This document shows, piece by piece, positions 27,093 to 33,884 of a stretch of DNA of 40,347 nucleotides; the first letter of the stretch is position 1, and every line of letters begins with the position of its first letter. The notes under the pieces are model-generated. The model made no database searches. It was not told the origin of the DNA and saw only the letters and a list, made by a program, of their open reading frames with translations. Source of the DNA: Alphaproteobacteria bacterium (GTDB lineage Bacteria > Pseudomonadota > Alphaproteobacteria > GCA-2731375); assembly GCA_016869175.1 (NCBI GenBank), contig VGEV01000015.1, positions 1 to 40,347 on the forward strand, read 5' to 3'. The position numbers and the translations under genes are program-made.

Positions 27093-27175
27093 TCACAGCG
27101 GCGCAAGATTAGCAGAACGTAAAAAGCCGTCGATTAGTCTCGCGCTTCGTGCAGCCCTCCTTTGGAGAATCGCAC

Positions 27176-28597
27176 TTGGCCGATCACGCCTCGGCGGCGC
27201 CACCGACCCTGTTGCTGGTGGAAGACAGCCCGACGATGGCACGGCTCTATCGCCGATTCGTCCGGCACGAGCCATACGCCGTCGTGCACGCCGCCAGCGC
27301 CGCCGAAGCCGCGGCCGCGCTCGGCCGCCTGACGCCGGCGGTGGCGCTGATCGACCTGCGCCTGCCGGACGCCGACGGCCTCGGCCTCCTGCGGCAGATT
27401 CGCGCGGACGGCCTGCCCACGGTGGCGGTGGCGATGACCGCGCATGGCAGCATCGAACTGGCGGTCGAGGCCATGCGAATCGGGGCCTTTGACTTCCTGG
27501 TCAAGCCCTTCGCCCGCGACCGCCTGCTCGTCACCTTGCGCAATGCCTTCGATCGGTTTCGCCTGACCGGGCTGGTGGAACGCTATCGCGCTGAGTTCGG
27601 CCGCGACCGGCTGTGCGGCTTGCTGGGCGGCTCGGACGCGATGCAGGCCGTCTATCACACCATCCTGGCGGCGGCGCGCAGCCGTGCCGCCGTGTTCATC
27701 AGCGGCGCCAGCGGCACCGGCAAGGAGCTGGCGGCGCGCGCGGTGCACGAGCTCAGCGAACGACGCGGCCGGCCGTTCGTGGCGGTCAATTGCGCTGCCC
27801 TGCCGGCCAGCCTGGCGGAAAGCGAACTGTTCGGTCATCGCAAGGGCGCCTTCACCGGGGCCGACGCGGCGCGGGCCGGCGCGGCGGCCTCGGCCGACGG
27901 CGGCACCCTGTTCCTCGACGAAATCAGCGAGATGGAGATCGCGACCCAGGCCAAGCTGCTGCGCTTCCTGCAAGGCGGCCGTTTCACCCCGCTCGGCGCC
28001 GACCGTGAACAGGTCGTCGACGTGCGCGTCCTGGCGGCCAGCAACCGGCGCCCGGAACAGGCCATGGCGGAGGGATGCCTCCGCGAGGACTTGTTCTACC
28101 GCCTCAACGTGATCCCGCTGGAGCTGCCGAGCCTGAAGGAGCGAGAGGCCGACGCGCTGCAGATCGCCCAGGCATTGCTGGCGCGCGTCGCCCGGGCGGA
28201 GGGCAAGCGCTTCGGCGCCATGGCGCCCGATGCCGAAGCCTGCCTGCTGGCCTACGACTGGCCGGGCAACGTGCGCGAACTGGAAAACAGCATCCATCGC
28301 GCGGTGGTGCTGAACGATGGCGAGCTGTTGACCGCCGCCATGCTGCCGCCGGCGCTGCGTGCCGCCACCCTGCCGCCGGCGCCGGGCGTCGCCGTTCCGC
28401 CGGTGCCGGCCTCGCCCCCCGGTATCCGTCCGCTCATCGAGGTCGAGCGCGCCGCCATCGAAGCCGCGTTGGCCGCCTGTCGGGGCAACGTCGCGCGGGC
28501 CGCGACGCTGCTCGGCATCAATCCCTCGACGCTCTACCGCAAGCGGCAAGCCTGGGAGGCGGGTGCCGCCCCGCCGGCCGCCAGCGCCGCGCGATAG
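27176..28597 (+). CDS. NtrC-family sigma54-dependent response regulator
   Basis: A 473-residue activator with three domains. The receiver spans residues 10-125, with acidic E16/D17, phosphoacceptor Asp60 (ALIDLRLPD), Thr88 and Lys110 (FLVKPF). The AAA+ domain spans about 145-380, with Walker A GASGTGKE (177-184), the sigma54-contacting loop GAFTGAD (224-230) and Walker B TLFLDEI. A C-terminal Fis-type helix-turn-helix (GNVARAATLLGINPSTLYRKR) ends it. TTG 27176 is favoured as start because GGAGA lies 7 nt upstream; a GTG at 27149 lacks such a site. It is transcribed away from the cytochrome operon, so it is the likely activator of that operon. No cognate histidine kinase is in the window, and the nearby Hpt gene is broken. 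Confidence 0.9.
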   Translation: MADHASAAPPTLLLVEDSPTMARLYRRFVRHEPYAVVHAASAAEAAAALGRLTPAVALIDLRLPDADGLGLLRQIRADGLPTVAVAMTAHGSIELAVEAMRIGAFDFLVKPFARDRLLVTLRNAFDRFRLTGLVERYRAEFGRDRLCGLLGGSDAMQAVYHTILAAARSRAAVFISGASGTGKELAARAVHELSERRGRPFVAVNCAALPASLAESELFGHRKGAFTGADAARAGAAASADGGTLFLDEISEMEIATQAKLLRFLQGGRFTPLGADREQVVDVRVLAASNRRPEQAMAEGCLREDLFYRLNVIPLELPSLKEREADALQIAQALLARVARAEGKRFGAMAPDAEACLLAYDWPGNVRELENSIHRAVVLNDGELLTAAMLPPALRAATLPPAPGVAVPPVPASPPGIRPLIEVERAAIEAALAACRGNVARAATLLGINPSTLYRKRQAWEAGAAPPAASAAR

Positions 28598-28894
28598 GCG
28601 GCCTCGGTTTCGGCTGCCAGCGCCGTCAACGCGGCCAGCAGCCTGTCATCCGCCGCCTTGCGTTCCAGGCGCCCAGCGGCATCCGCCAGCGAGAGCGCGC
28701 CAAAATTCTCCGCCAGGCCGCAAAGCTGGTGCGCCAGACGCGCGCGCCCGGCTCGCCAGCCCGGCCGCCGCCAGTTCCGCCTGCAACCGCGCAACCTCGG
28801 CCAAGAAATCCTCGATCAGCTCCGGCAAGGCCTCGGCGCCGACCTCGGCCTCCAGTTGCACCAGGGTCGCGCGTGCCAGCGTCGCCCGGCTCAT
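28534..28894 (-). pseudogene. Hpt phosphotransfer protein broken by a 1-nt frameshift
   Basis: Two overlapping minus-strand frames together give one Hpt-like four-helix protein. The N-terminal part (ATG 28894) reads MSRATLARATLVQLEAEVGA and LPELIEDFLAEVARLQAEL. The C-terminal part reads ARLAHQLCGLAENFGALSL, containing the phosphoacceptor-like His. The frames switch by +1 in the run of alternating C and G near 28738-28752. The His motif has Cys where Hpt proteins usually have Lys (HxLKG). The 3' end overlaps the regulator gene antisense by 64 bp. It starts 3 bp after the crotonase stop, so the two are co-transcribed. Either a real mutation or a base-calling error in the GC repeat is possible. 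Confidence 0.6.
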
Positions 28895-31169: not shown

Positions 31170-31358
31170 CTACAGGACGCCGTCGAGTATCATGGCGAGG
31201 CCGGTGATGAGCGCTATGGTGACAAACCCCGCCAAGACGATGATCGCCTGATCGCTCCAGCGATTGTTCGACTTTTGATTGCGCCGGCCCATGACCCAAG
31301 CGACAAGCGCAAGCACGACCAGGAGAGCGCCGACGCTCTCGAGGACCAAGATGTTCAC
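31170..31358 (-). CDS. Small two-helix membrane protein, array copy A3
   Basis: A 62-residue protein of unknown function, third of three paralogues (with 31931-32125 and 32663-32854). It has two hydrophobic helices, about residues 6-23 and 38-58, joined by a loop starting with GRRNQ, and ends in ITGLAMILDGVL. GTG 31358 is chosen for AGGA 8 nt upstream and because the protein then aligns end to end with its paralogues; a longer in-frame start at 31412 would add an Arg-rich tail. It is the most distal member of the array and has no exported partner behind it. Confidence 0.65.
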   Translation of the reverse strand: MNILVLESVGALLVVLALVAWVMGRRNQKSNNRWSDQAIIVLAGFVTIALITGLAMILDGVL

Positions 31359-31493
31359 TTCGACGATCCTTCGCCGGCCGCTGGCAGTGGCGCGCGACGG
31401 CGGCTTCGCCATCGCCCGGCACCATTGCCGCGGCAGATTGCTTCGATGGGTTGCATTCGCGCCATCTCGCGCTCGCGCGCCGGTGGCTTGCCG

Positions 31494-31895
31494 CTAGGCG
31501 CGTGCCGGAGGGCCGGTGGCGCGGCGGGGCGAGCTGAAATGCTCGGCCGCCAGGCAAACGGTGCGTTGTGGCGCGCGGGCGGCGCCCGCTCGGTCGATCG
31601 GTCTTGGCGCGGAACGCTGCTCGGCCACCTTGGCCGGCAGGCGCGGCGGCTCGCCGTCCGGCCGCTTGCGCTCCAGCCGCTGCTCCCCGCGCTTGATCTC
31701 TATGCCCGCCTCGGTCTTGGCGAGCGGCTGGCCGGGATCCCAGGTGGTCGCACTCGTCTCGCCGCAACCAGGCGATGCCAGCAGCGACAGTGGCGCTGGC
31801 GGCATCGCCACGGCCGGCAAGAACAAGCCCAGCACCGCCAGCGCCGCCAGCAGGCGACGCGGGCAGGCCGGAGCCCAGGCGAACCGCTTCATCAT
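31494..31895 (-). CDS. Small exported protein, array copy B2
   Basis: A 133-residue protein of unknown function. The N-terminus MMKRFAWAPACPRRLLAALAVLGL forms a basic signal peptide with a cut near AVAM. The mature part is polar and charged (EIKRGEQRLERKRPDGEPP) with three Cys (one in the leader, GCGE and TVCLAAE). Its end, HFSSPRRATGPPARA, matches that of copy B1 (HFHSPRSPTGPPPAA), so the two are paralogues. It follows membrane protein A2 by 35 bp. It could be anchored by an uncleaved leader helix. Confidence 0.5.
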   Translation of the reverse strand: MMKRFAWAPACPRRLLAALAVLGLFLPAVAMPPAPLSLLASPGCGETSATTWDPGQPLAKTEAGIEIKRGEQRLERKRPDGEPPRLPAKVAEQRSAPRPIDRAGAARAPQRTVCLAAEHFSSPRRATGPPARA

Positions 31896-31930
31896 GCCGC
31901 CCGCGCTAGCGGCGCCGACGGCGCGAAACG

Positions 31931-32125
31931 CTAGAGCGCGCCATCCAGCACCATGGCGATGCCGGTGATCAGGCTGATGGTGGCGATACCGGCCAGGCTG
32001 ATGATCACCTGGTCGTTCCAACGCAACTCCATGGGCCCACGCTGATTGCGCCGGCCGATGAACCAACTGGCGATGCCGATGACAATCAGCCCCACCCCGA
32101 TGAGCTCCAGCTCGAGCAAATTCAT
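31931..32125 (-). CDS. Small two-helix membrane protein, array copy A2
   Basis: A 64-residue protein starting MNLLELELIGVGLIVIGI. Two membrane helices flank IGRRNQRGP, and the C-terminus is ITGIAMVLDGAL. It shares ELELIG, RRNQRG and IAxVLDGxL with A1 and ITG, GRRNQ and LDG with A3. The basic loop between helices should face the cytoplasm, putting both ends outside. No known family is recognised. It sits between B1 and B2 in a head-to-tail array, which suggests duplication of an A-B gene pair. Confidence 0.7.
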   Translation of the reverse strand: MNLLELELIGVGLIVIGIASWFIGRRNQRGPMELRWNDQVIISLAGIATISLITGIAMVLDGAL

Positions 32126-32253
32126 GTTCGTTCGCTCCGATGCGCCGGCGGCGGCTCAAGCCCGCTCACTGCTGCTTGCGCGCGACGCGCGGCGGAAATC
32201 CCGACGGACGCTATGCGCCGCGCGGCGGCGAACCGTCGGCGGCGCCGGCTCGG

Positions 32254-32628
32254 TCAGGCCGCGGGTGGCGGTCCGGTCGGGCTGCGGGGCGAATGGAAAT
32301 GCCGGCTGGTCCCGCTTTCGACGACTTGCGGGGCAGCGATGCACGGGCGGGCAACCGGCGCCGGCGCGGGCGCCGCGGCGGACAGGACCGCCAGCAGGTT
32401 CGGCGCCGGTTTGGCCACCTGCCGGCGTTTCTGCATGCCGGCGGTCGGTTCCGCTTCAAGTTTCGCGATCTGCTCGGCCGGCTCGGCCGAGCTCACCTGA
32501 TCGACCTTTGGCGCGGCTTCGACCAGGTCGAGCGACGGCGCCGGCGGCGGCAGCAAGGCCGCCAGCAGCATGCCCAGCAGCGCGAGCCAAGCCACCAGCC
32601 GGCGCCCGCGCGGCCTGCCGCCGGCCAC
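32254..32628 (-). CDS. Small exported protein, array copy B1
   Basis: About 124 residues, function unknown. The start is uncertain: GTG 32628 begins just before a signal-peptide-like stretch (GRRLVAWLALLGMLLAALLPP), while ATG 32685 would overlap the end of A1 by 23 bp. The mature part is Ala/Pro/Glu-rich with one Cys (ARPCIAAPQ), and ends HFHSPRSPTGPPPAA, the shared B-type tail. Low-complexity sequence makes annotation pipelines likely to miss it; the tail shared with B2 is the best evidence that both are translated. Confidence 0.5.
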   Translation of the reverse strand: MAGGRPRGRRLVAWLALLGMLLAALLPPPAPSLDLVEAAPKVDQVSSAEPAEQIAKLEAEPTAGMQKRRQVAKPAPNLLAVLSAAAPAPAPVARPCIAAPQVVESGTSRHFHSPRSPTGPPPAA

Positions 32629-32662
32629 GGTCAGGCCGGCGGCCCGGATCAGGCCGGAGGGT

Positions 32663-32854
32663 TCAGAGCACCCCGTCCAGGACAAAGGCGATGCCCGCGA
32701 TCAAGGAAATTGTGCTGGTGCCGGCGGCGACGATCACCATTGGGTCCGGCCAGGGGGCGGTGCCGCGCTGATTGCGGCGCGCCACCAACCAAACGGCAAG
32801 CGCGACCGCGATCAGGATCGCGCCGATCAATTCCAACTCCGAAACCGGCAGCAT
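32663..32854 (-). CDS. Small two-helix membrane protein, array copy A1
   Basis: A 63-residue protein starting MLPVSELELIGAILIAVALA, with helices at about 8-25 and 40-58, loop ARRNQRGT, and end IAGIAFVLDGVL. It is clearly paralogous to A2 and A3. ATG 32854 matches the start of A2 in alignment; the frame runs on to 33058 but only with Arg/Pro-rich antisense-like sequence. It starts 82 bp after the secF stop on the same strand, so the array may be transcribed with secF. Confidence 0.7.
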   Translation of the reverse strand: MLPVSELELIGAILIAVALAVWLVARRNQRGTAPWPDPMVIVAAGTSTISLIAGIAFVLDGVL

Positions 32855-32936: not shown

Positions 32937-33884
32937 TCACCCGGCGGCCTTGGGCGGCGTCTCGCCCTCCCGTGGCTCCGCCGCCGGCCGCAATGCCTTC
33001 GGCGCCGGCAGGTAGAGCAGCAGGGCAGCCGCCACGTAGATCGAGGAGAATGTGCCAATCAGCACGCCGCACAACACCGCCGCGTTGAAGTTCAGGATCA
33101 CGTCGCCACCGAACATCAGCAGCGCGAACACGGCCAGCAGCGTCGTGCTGCTGGTGCGAATCGTGCGGCTCAAGGTCTCGTTGACACTGCGATTGATGAT
33201 CCGCGGCAGGGGGTCGCGTCGGAACTTGCGCAAGTTCTCACGGATTCGGTCGAACACGACGACGGTATCGTTGATCGAGTAGCCGGCAACGGTCAGCAGC
33301 GCGGCCACGGCGGCGATGTTGAACTCGAGGTCGAAAACCGCGAACAGGCCGAGCGTGGCCAACACGTCATATCCGGTGGTGACCAGCGCCAGGAGACCGA
33401 ACTGCCATTCGAAGCGGAACCAGACATAGATCGCGATGGCCAGCACCGCCAGCACGGTGGCGAGGATGCCGTCGCGCAACAACTCGGCGCTGATGGCGGG
33501 CCCCACCGCCTCGACCCGGCGATAGTCGAGCGTCGGCCCCAACGCCTCCTTGACCCGCAGAACGGCGGCGGCGTCGCGGTCCACGGCGCGGCCGATCGGC
33601 TGCACCCGGACCAGCAAGCCGTTCGGCCCGCCGAAATTTTGCAGCTGCACCTCGCCAAGGTTGAGCCCGGCCAACTTCTCGCGCATGGCGGCAACGTCGA
33701 AGGCTTTCTTCGCCTGCACCTCGATCATCACGCCGCCGGTGAAATCGATACCGAAATCCAAGCCCTTCAGCGCCACCGCAATCCCACCCACGACCAGCAG
33801 CAGGATGGAAAACACAAATGCGATCAGCCGTTTGCCGACGAAATCGATGTTGGTGTTTTCCTTGATCAGGGTGAAACGCGCCAT
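32937..33884 (-). CDS. secF: Protein translocase subunit SecF
   Basis: A 315-residue inner-membrane subunit of SecDF, which uses the proton gradient to help pull exported proteins across the membrane. Six helices are predicted, with a periplasmic P4-type domain between the first and second. Signatures are GIDFTGGVMIEV (about 45-56), GYSINDTVVVFDRIRENLR and the region SVNETLSRTIRTSSTT. ATG 33884 gives the usual N-terminus (MARFTLIKENTNIDF). secD and yajC normally precede secF, but here the upstream neighbour is a divergent alcohol dehydrogenase, so secD must be elsewhere or lost from this locus. Confidence 0.95.
   Translation of the reverse strand: MARFTLIKENTNIDFVGKRLIAFVFSILLLVVGGIAVALKGLDFGIDFTGGVMIEVQAKKAFDVAAMREKLAGLNLGEVQLQNFGGPNGLLVRVQPIGRAVDRDAAAVLRVKEALGPTLDYRRVEAVGPAISAELLRDGILATVLAVLAIAIYVWFRFEWQFGLLALVTTGYDVLATLGLFAVFDLEFNIAAVAALLTVAGYSINDTVVVFDRIRENLRKFRRDPLPRIINRSVNETLSRTIRTSSTTLLAVFALLMFGGDVILNFNAAVLCGVLIGTFSSIYVAAALLLYLPAPKALRPAAEPREGETPPKAAG

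Follow-up and report, generated by a model that had tools for sequence, protein, structure and literature searches.

Candidate translation-arrest leaders in a duplicated array of small membrane and exported protein genes behind a relocated secF

Introduction

SecM of Escherichia coli is an exported monitor protein that carries a C-terminal arrest motif and is encoded upstream of the gene that it controls. Other Sec arrest peptides, ApdP and the RAPP-like RQH group, have also been described (PMC7897499, PMC10987492, PMC12992588). Sec-linked arrest peptides were recognized as small unannotated uORFs with an N-terminal signal, a conserved C-terminus and a spacer of more than 30 residues, and they lie upstream of secA, secDF or yidC (PMC10987492). 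The survey's list of motifs from short exported uORFs of sec and yidC genes includes TGPP, entered because four or more uORFs within a single order of bacteria have it in common, and orphan uORFs with a narrow distribution are described as well (PMC10987492). ApcA, ApdA and ApdP, and reportedly SecM, tolerate no substitution of the first motif Arg (PMC12992588). G/PP/G triplets are listed among the strong pausers, and stalling at prolines is said to be weaker when Thr or Gly lies upstream (PMC5811046). CruR harbors RAPP three residues before its C-terminus, is separated from the next gene by a 162-bp gap, and acts through Rho-dependent termination (PMC9426467). The proline tail of CutF does not stall by itself (PMC9973294).

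Here we describe an array in which genes for small exported proteins (B) alternate with genes for two-helix membrane proteins (A) behind secF. Its layout is akin to that of the ApdP-secDF, CruR-bfrG and CutF-cutO pairs, where a leader lies upstream of a controlled gene.

Results

Organization of the array

The window is a stretch of 40,347 nucleotides (contig VGEV01000015.1 of assembly GCA_016869175.1, from an alphaproteobacterium). Five minus-strand frames in the order A-B-A-B-A occupy positions 31170-32854, 3' of secF. In the order of transcription, the features are:

32937..33884, minus strand: secF, the only secF found in the genome (at E 1e-20), away from yajC-secD, which is on another contig
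32663..32854, minus strand: A1, 63 residues, two-helix membrane protein; AAGGGGG before the ATG read as a Shine-Dalgarno site
32254..32628, minus strand: B1, 124 residues, GTG start, putative exported protein; tail HFHSPRSPTGPPPAA-stop
32126..32253, minus strand: B1-A2 gap, 128 nt
31931..32125, minus strand: A2, 64 residues, two-helix membrane protein; GGAG before the ATG
31494..31895, minus strand: B2, 133 residues, putative exported protein; tail HFSSPRRATGPPARA-stop
31359..31493, minus strand: B2-A3 gap, 135 nt
31170..31358, minus strand: A3, 62 residues, GTG start, two-helix membrane protein; AAGGA upstream

From secF, A1 follows after 82 nt, B1 after a further 34 nt, A2 after 128 nt, B2 after 35 nt and A3 after 135 nt. 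The spacing from A to B is thus 34-35 nt, whereas that from B to A is 128 and 135 nt; no B precedes A1. The GTG start of B1 was picked from the layout of its signal peptide and from the 34-nt spacing to A1, which matches the 35 nt between A2 and B2; a TTG upstream, at 32685, is likewise open. When the frames were re-read, the coordinates, the lengths of the A proteins and the RRNQ and LDGxL motifs given in an earlier note on this DNA proved correct. The array does lie behind secF, as that note had it, secF itself being misplaced in this genome. Judging from gene order and strand, from which a shared transcript is assumed, the array and secF probably form one transcription unit. A promoter scan found no promoter, a terminator scan returned 3 terminator-like sequences versus 2.4 expected, and the Rfam search gave one sub-threshold match, outside the array.

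Elsewhere in the window, a putative sigma-54-type response regulator (27149-28597) is followed by a small Hpt-like frame on the opposite strand (28534-28794). We take the two to resemble a LuxO/LuxU pair.

The A proteins

A1, A2 and A3 are full-length paralogues, 47-56% identical, and their three pairwise comparisons give shuffle z-scores of 25-28 (500 shuffles each). All three contain RRNQ, their C-termini read LDGVL, LDGAL and LDGVL, and the invariant positions comprise E, W, RRNQ and LDG. Of the six frames in which the aligned DNA can be read, the annotated one is the most alike, with identities of 0.58-0.66, 0.69-0.74 and 0.45-0.50 at codon positions 1, 2 and 3. Between copies, substitutions affect about 57% of the synonymous sites but 30-37% of the non-synonymous ones; the Nei-Gojobori dN/dS is 0.37-0.45, selection on A, as on B below, being judged between paralogues within one genome. 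GC3 (0.83-0.88, versus a GC2 of 0.35-0.48) fits coding sequence, and Shine-Dalgarno-like sites precede all three genes.

AlphaFold2, run on a three-row alignment, predicts a helical hairpin with helices at residues 4-30 and 37-62 (mean pLDDT 90). Every Lys and Arg lies in or adjoins the RRNQ loop, with none elsewhere, and by the positive-inside rule both ends of the protein should therefore be in the periplasm. A resemblance of the RRNQ loop to ATP synthase subunit c (the c-ring) was considered and dropped, as there was no profile match. No Pfam or NCBIfam family matched A above its curated cut-off, the best matches lying below, and PHROGs, PADLOC and PDB sequences yielded weak matches only. 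Foldseek returned 59 PDB matches to the hairpin at E up to 10. Because none of them reached E 0.001, the predicted fold is uninformative.

The B proteins

Putative signal peptides, read from the sequence by eye, follow the Arg-rich starts of B1 (RRLVAWLALLGMLLAALL) and B2 (RRLLAALAVLGLFLPAVA). Between signal and tail, a diverged, Pro/Ala-rich, low-complexity linker spans more than 80 residues. The two proteins share the tail HFxSPRxxTGPPxxA-stop, B1 ending in TGPPPAA and B2 in TGPPARA, and TGPP sits three residues before the stop in both. The alternation of A and B described in the earlier note stands, with its tail pattern, TGPPxA, lengthened by one residue. B1 and B2 agree at ten of their final 15 positions, a number that none of 200000 sets drawn at random from the same composition reached. 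Over their full length they compare with a shuffle z-score of 13.8 (500 shuffles); part by part, the tail (z 6.9) and the signal (z 5.5) are most alike and the linker less so (z 3.6).

The tail looks to be kept as protein, given its synonymous changes (dN 0.26 and dS 1.0, over 15 codons only). Over the 122 aligned codons of the whole of B, identity at the three codon positions is 0.50, 0.66 and 0.59. Since position 1 is less alike than position 3, purifying selection on B as a whole is not demonstrated; outside the tail the proteins are weakly conserved. GC3 is 0.85, versus a GC2 of 0.61-0.64. There is one Cys in B1, counted from the GTG, and three in B2, with neither CxxC nor CxxxC in either protein. 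Neither matches any Pfam family at E up to 10, and thus neither matches DUF2946 (PF11162).

The background for the tail was taken from 400 kb of the same genome (20 stretches, 375 genes from a rough caller based on GC by codon position). Within the last 8 residues, [AG]PP occurs in 5 of the 375 genes and [RHQT][AG]PP in none. TGPP was observed 3 times versus 1.7 expected in these 400 kb. RGPP was observed 0 times versus 3.9 expected in 125,356 called residues (L139-L158), in agreement with its published avoidance.

Distribution of A and B

The family, class and phylum samples that were searched overlap, and each includes the genome of the array; at order level the sample is identical to the 15 genomes of the family. 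A matched 2 of the 15 family genomes, namely its own and one with a 22.6-bit match within a 355-residue frame, which we take to encode a COX15/CtaA-like protein. Its own was the one genome matched among the 385 of the class sample. Eleven of the 398 phylum genomes matched, ten at 18.8-22.8 bits within frames of 127-514 residues. On inspection, these ten and the weak family match cover short parts of long frames, either helical or unrelated to A, and were judged to be chance. A motif scan of 84,980 species genomes, which needs near-exact short motifs, gave 71 pattern matches and no relative. No A was found in plasmids, and two IMG/VR loci were rejected, sharing only 14 residues with A in a frame unlike A. 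A search of six genomes of named secF loci, run without a positive control, found A in 0 of 6. Across 80 named secF loci, no small frame had an A-like match and no frame with C-terminal [RHQT][AGS]PP was convincing, the 11 listed being judged spurious by eye.

With up to one mismatch, the B tail pattern was found in 5 of the 385 class genomes: the genome of the array, with two exact matches, and four further genomes in which every match has one mismatch. The one of these four that was inspected (L035) is antisense within another gene, presumably cytochrome-oxidase-like. The pattern PRxxTGPPxxx-stop, restricted to TAA and TGA and hence blind to the TAG of B2, was present in 2 of 15 family genomes; the two matches in G003 fall outside any listed small frame with that ending. 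The B profile matched 1 of 15 family genomes, its own. Conservation of the B tail in a second lineage was thus not found among the class and family genomes searched.

The earlier note had proposed a small, unrecognized module without assigning it a function. Duplication of the A/B pair is well supported, and searches of Pfam, NCBIfam, PHROGs, PADLOC, Rfam and PDB sequences do not recognize it. The check suggested there, whether A and B occur together in other genomes, came out negative, since the searches revealed neither in any further genome. Within the genomes covered, the pair is lineage-restricted and present in its own genome only.

Relocation of secF

Across the secF regions of the 13 relatives compared, the gene after secF is one that we take to be Mth938-like, and not A or B. 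Here, yajC, secD and the Mth938-like gene lie together on contig 52 (L055, 13500-20500) with no secF between them, and the stop of secD overlaps the next start. Here secF no longer forms part of the yajC-secD operon. With the intact SecDs of the family (12 of the 13 loci, the thirteenth being cut), SecD shares 60-65% identity, and it falls within their group. SecF shares 47-50% identity with the family SecFs and clusters, with support of 99/98, with the SecFs of the four loci L060, L062, L064 and L075. Forcing it into its own family changed the log-likelihood by -23.4 (AU p 0.009, on a reduced 21-row set picked once the first tree had been built). Because its branch is long, a foreign replacement and fast change after relocation are both possible origins.

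The clade of these four SecFs consists mostly of alphaproteobacterial MAGs, in which no secD adjoins secF in the stretch examined. L060 and L062 have a common downstream gene.

RNA folding between B and A

Removal of the stretch that a stalled ribosome would cover changed the predicted accessibility of the A start from 0.42 to 0.39 in one pair and from 0.45 to 0.45 in the other. The B1-A2 gap folds no better than shuffled sequences (z +1.22), and the B2-A3 gap folds better (z -2.15). With no predicted gain in accessibility, the models do not support a switch of the SecM or CutF type, in which the stall frees the downstream start. Any control by stalling would therefore need a route through Rho or mRNA stability.

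Discussion

A and B are a true, lineage-restricted, duplicated gene pair. Similarly to the ApdP and RQH peptides, B has a putative signal peptide, a variable linker and, close to its C-terminal end, a short Pro-Pro motif that is conserved, it is encoded upstream of a membrane protein gene, and its TGPP is among the query motifs of the survey. Read from its sequence, B thus appears to combine the export signal, the spacer of more than 30 residues and the listed motif of RAPP-like peptides with a C-terminal motif whose conservation rests on two paralogues. In contrast to these peptides, Thr replaces the irreplaceable Arg in both B copies, B lies upstream of the new hairpins A2 and A3 and not of secA, secDF or yidC, and it occurs in two tandem copies, behind secF. 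Because the Arg and the downstream gene differ, we do not file B in the RAPP family, but it may still work like a member.

The other described systems are each reminiscent of B in part. Like SecM, B would be an exported monitor with a C-terminal motif upstream of another gene, here A; it lacks FxxxxWIxxxxGIRAGP and has no predicted stall-operated RNA switch. CruR of Bordetella pertussis, a DUF2946 protein, has the same distance of three residues from motif to end and a long gap downstream, whereas B has no DUF2946 match and no CxxC. CutF of the alphaproteobacterium Rhodobacter capsulatus is likewise an exported leader with a Pro-rich C-terminus before a controlled gene (PMC9973294); B differs in lacking CxxxC and any evident stem-loop that would mask the Shine-Dalgarno site of A.

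We tentatively favor B1 and B2 as RAPP-like translation-arrest, export-sensing leaders for A2 and A3, respectively, a quite possible reading, because of the layout of B, the presence of TGPP in the survey list and the CruR-like spacing. The greater likeness of B1 and B2 in tail and signal, the pausing listed for G/PP/G and the absence of [RHQT][AG]PP endings among the 375 background genes point the same way. Against this reading count the Thr at the Arg position, the failure of the CutF tail to stall by itself, the lack of a predicted RNA switch, downstream genes other than sec genes and a tail seen, in the genomes searched, in one lineage. The agreement between B1 and B2 counts as a single piece of evidence, because both come from one duplication. 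The array as a whole suggests a twice-repeated sensor and effector pair behind secF. The signal peptide of nascent B would be engaged by the Sec machinery, and SPRxxTGPP in its tail would slow or stop the ribosome at Gly-Pro-Pro. Normal export would pull the chain and free the ribosome; with slow export or a bound ligand, the ribosome would stay stalled and thereby either protect the transcript or let its synthesis continue, allowing expression of the A gene that starts 128-135 nt further on. As the immediate neighbor of secF, A1 would be expressed together with it, and A2 and A3 on demand. The inner membrane would be the site of action of the hairpins and SecDF or SecYEG a plausible target, the target being a guess from position alone. 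A rather improbable extension is a graded response from a single operon, in which the relocated secF gained A as a new two-helix Sec accessory, the unit of arrest peptide and accessory was duplicated, and each of the two monitors, with its Arg-free Thr-Gly-Pro-Pro motif, adds one accessory subunit when export falters.

It is somewhat unlikely, by comparison, that A and B are structural partners in a small envelope complex of A hairpins and secreted, Pro-rich B, duplicated for dosage or hetero-oligomers, with the B tail as a binding motif and not a stalling signal. Strict alternation and repeated duplication would suit such a complex, and so would the invariant E, W, RRNQ and LDG positions of A; the HF and SPR of the tail exceed what known stalling motifs need. 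However, most of mature B consists of low-complexity linker with little conservation, the last 15 residues of the protein alone being strongly kept, A1 has no preceding B, and a binding motif has no need of a fixed distance from the stop.

The genes could also be young, lineage-specific and of little or no function, retained and duplicated by chance in a genome whose high GC content goes with many spurious frames. We consider this improbable. No relatives appeared in any genome searched, long spurious frames are common here and the codon positions of B are without overall purifying selection, but such an origin fits poorly with the dN/dS among the three A copies (0.37-0.45), the coding GC3, the Shine-Dalgarno-like sites before every A, the confidently predicted hairpin (mean pLDDT 90) and a B tail retained despite synonymous changes. 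Least probable is that B, as a leader of the DUF2946 type like CruR and CutF, senses a ligand or metal and not the state of export, with A as a small envelope stress or metal protein: a small exported protein with a Pro tail near its stop, a long gap and a downstream gene on the same strand fit, but both B proteins lack a DUF2946 match at E up to 10 as well as CxxC and CxxxC, and no metal gene was recognized among the neighbors, which were inspected without family searches.

Searches of the open-access PMC library for work on arrest peptides yielded no duplicated sensor/effector array beside secF. If B1 and B2 do stall ribosomes, this locus would provide an arrest motif without the Arg thought to be essential and would extend arrest control to small membrane hairpins. 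It would also represent a sensor and effector array that was duplicated next to secF, and A would become a candidate for a new accessory protein of Sec.
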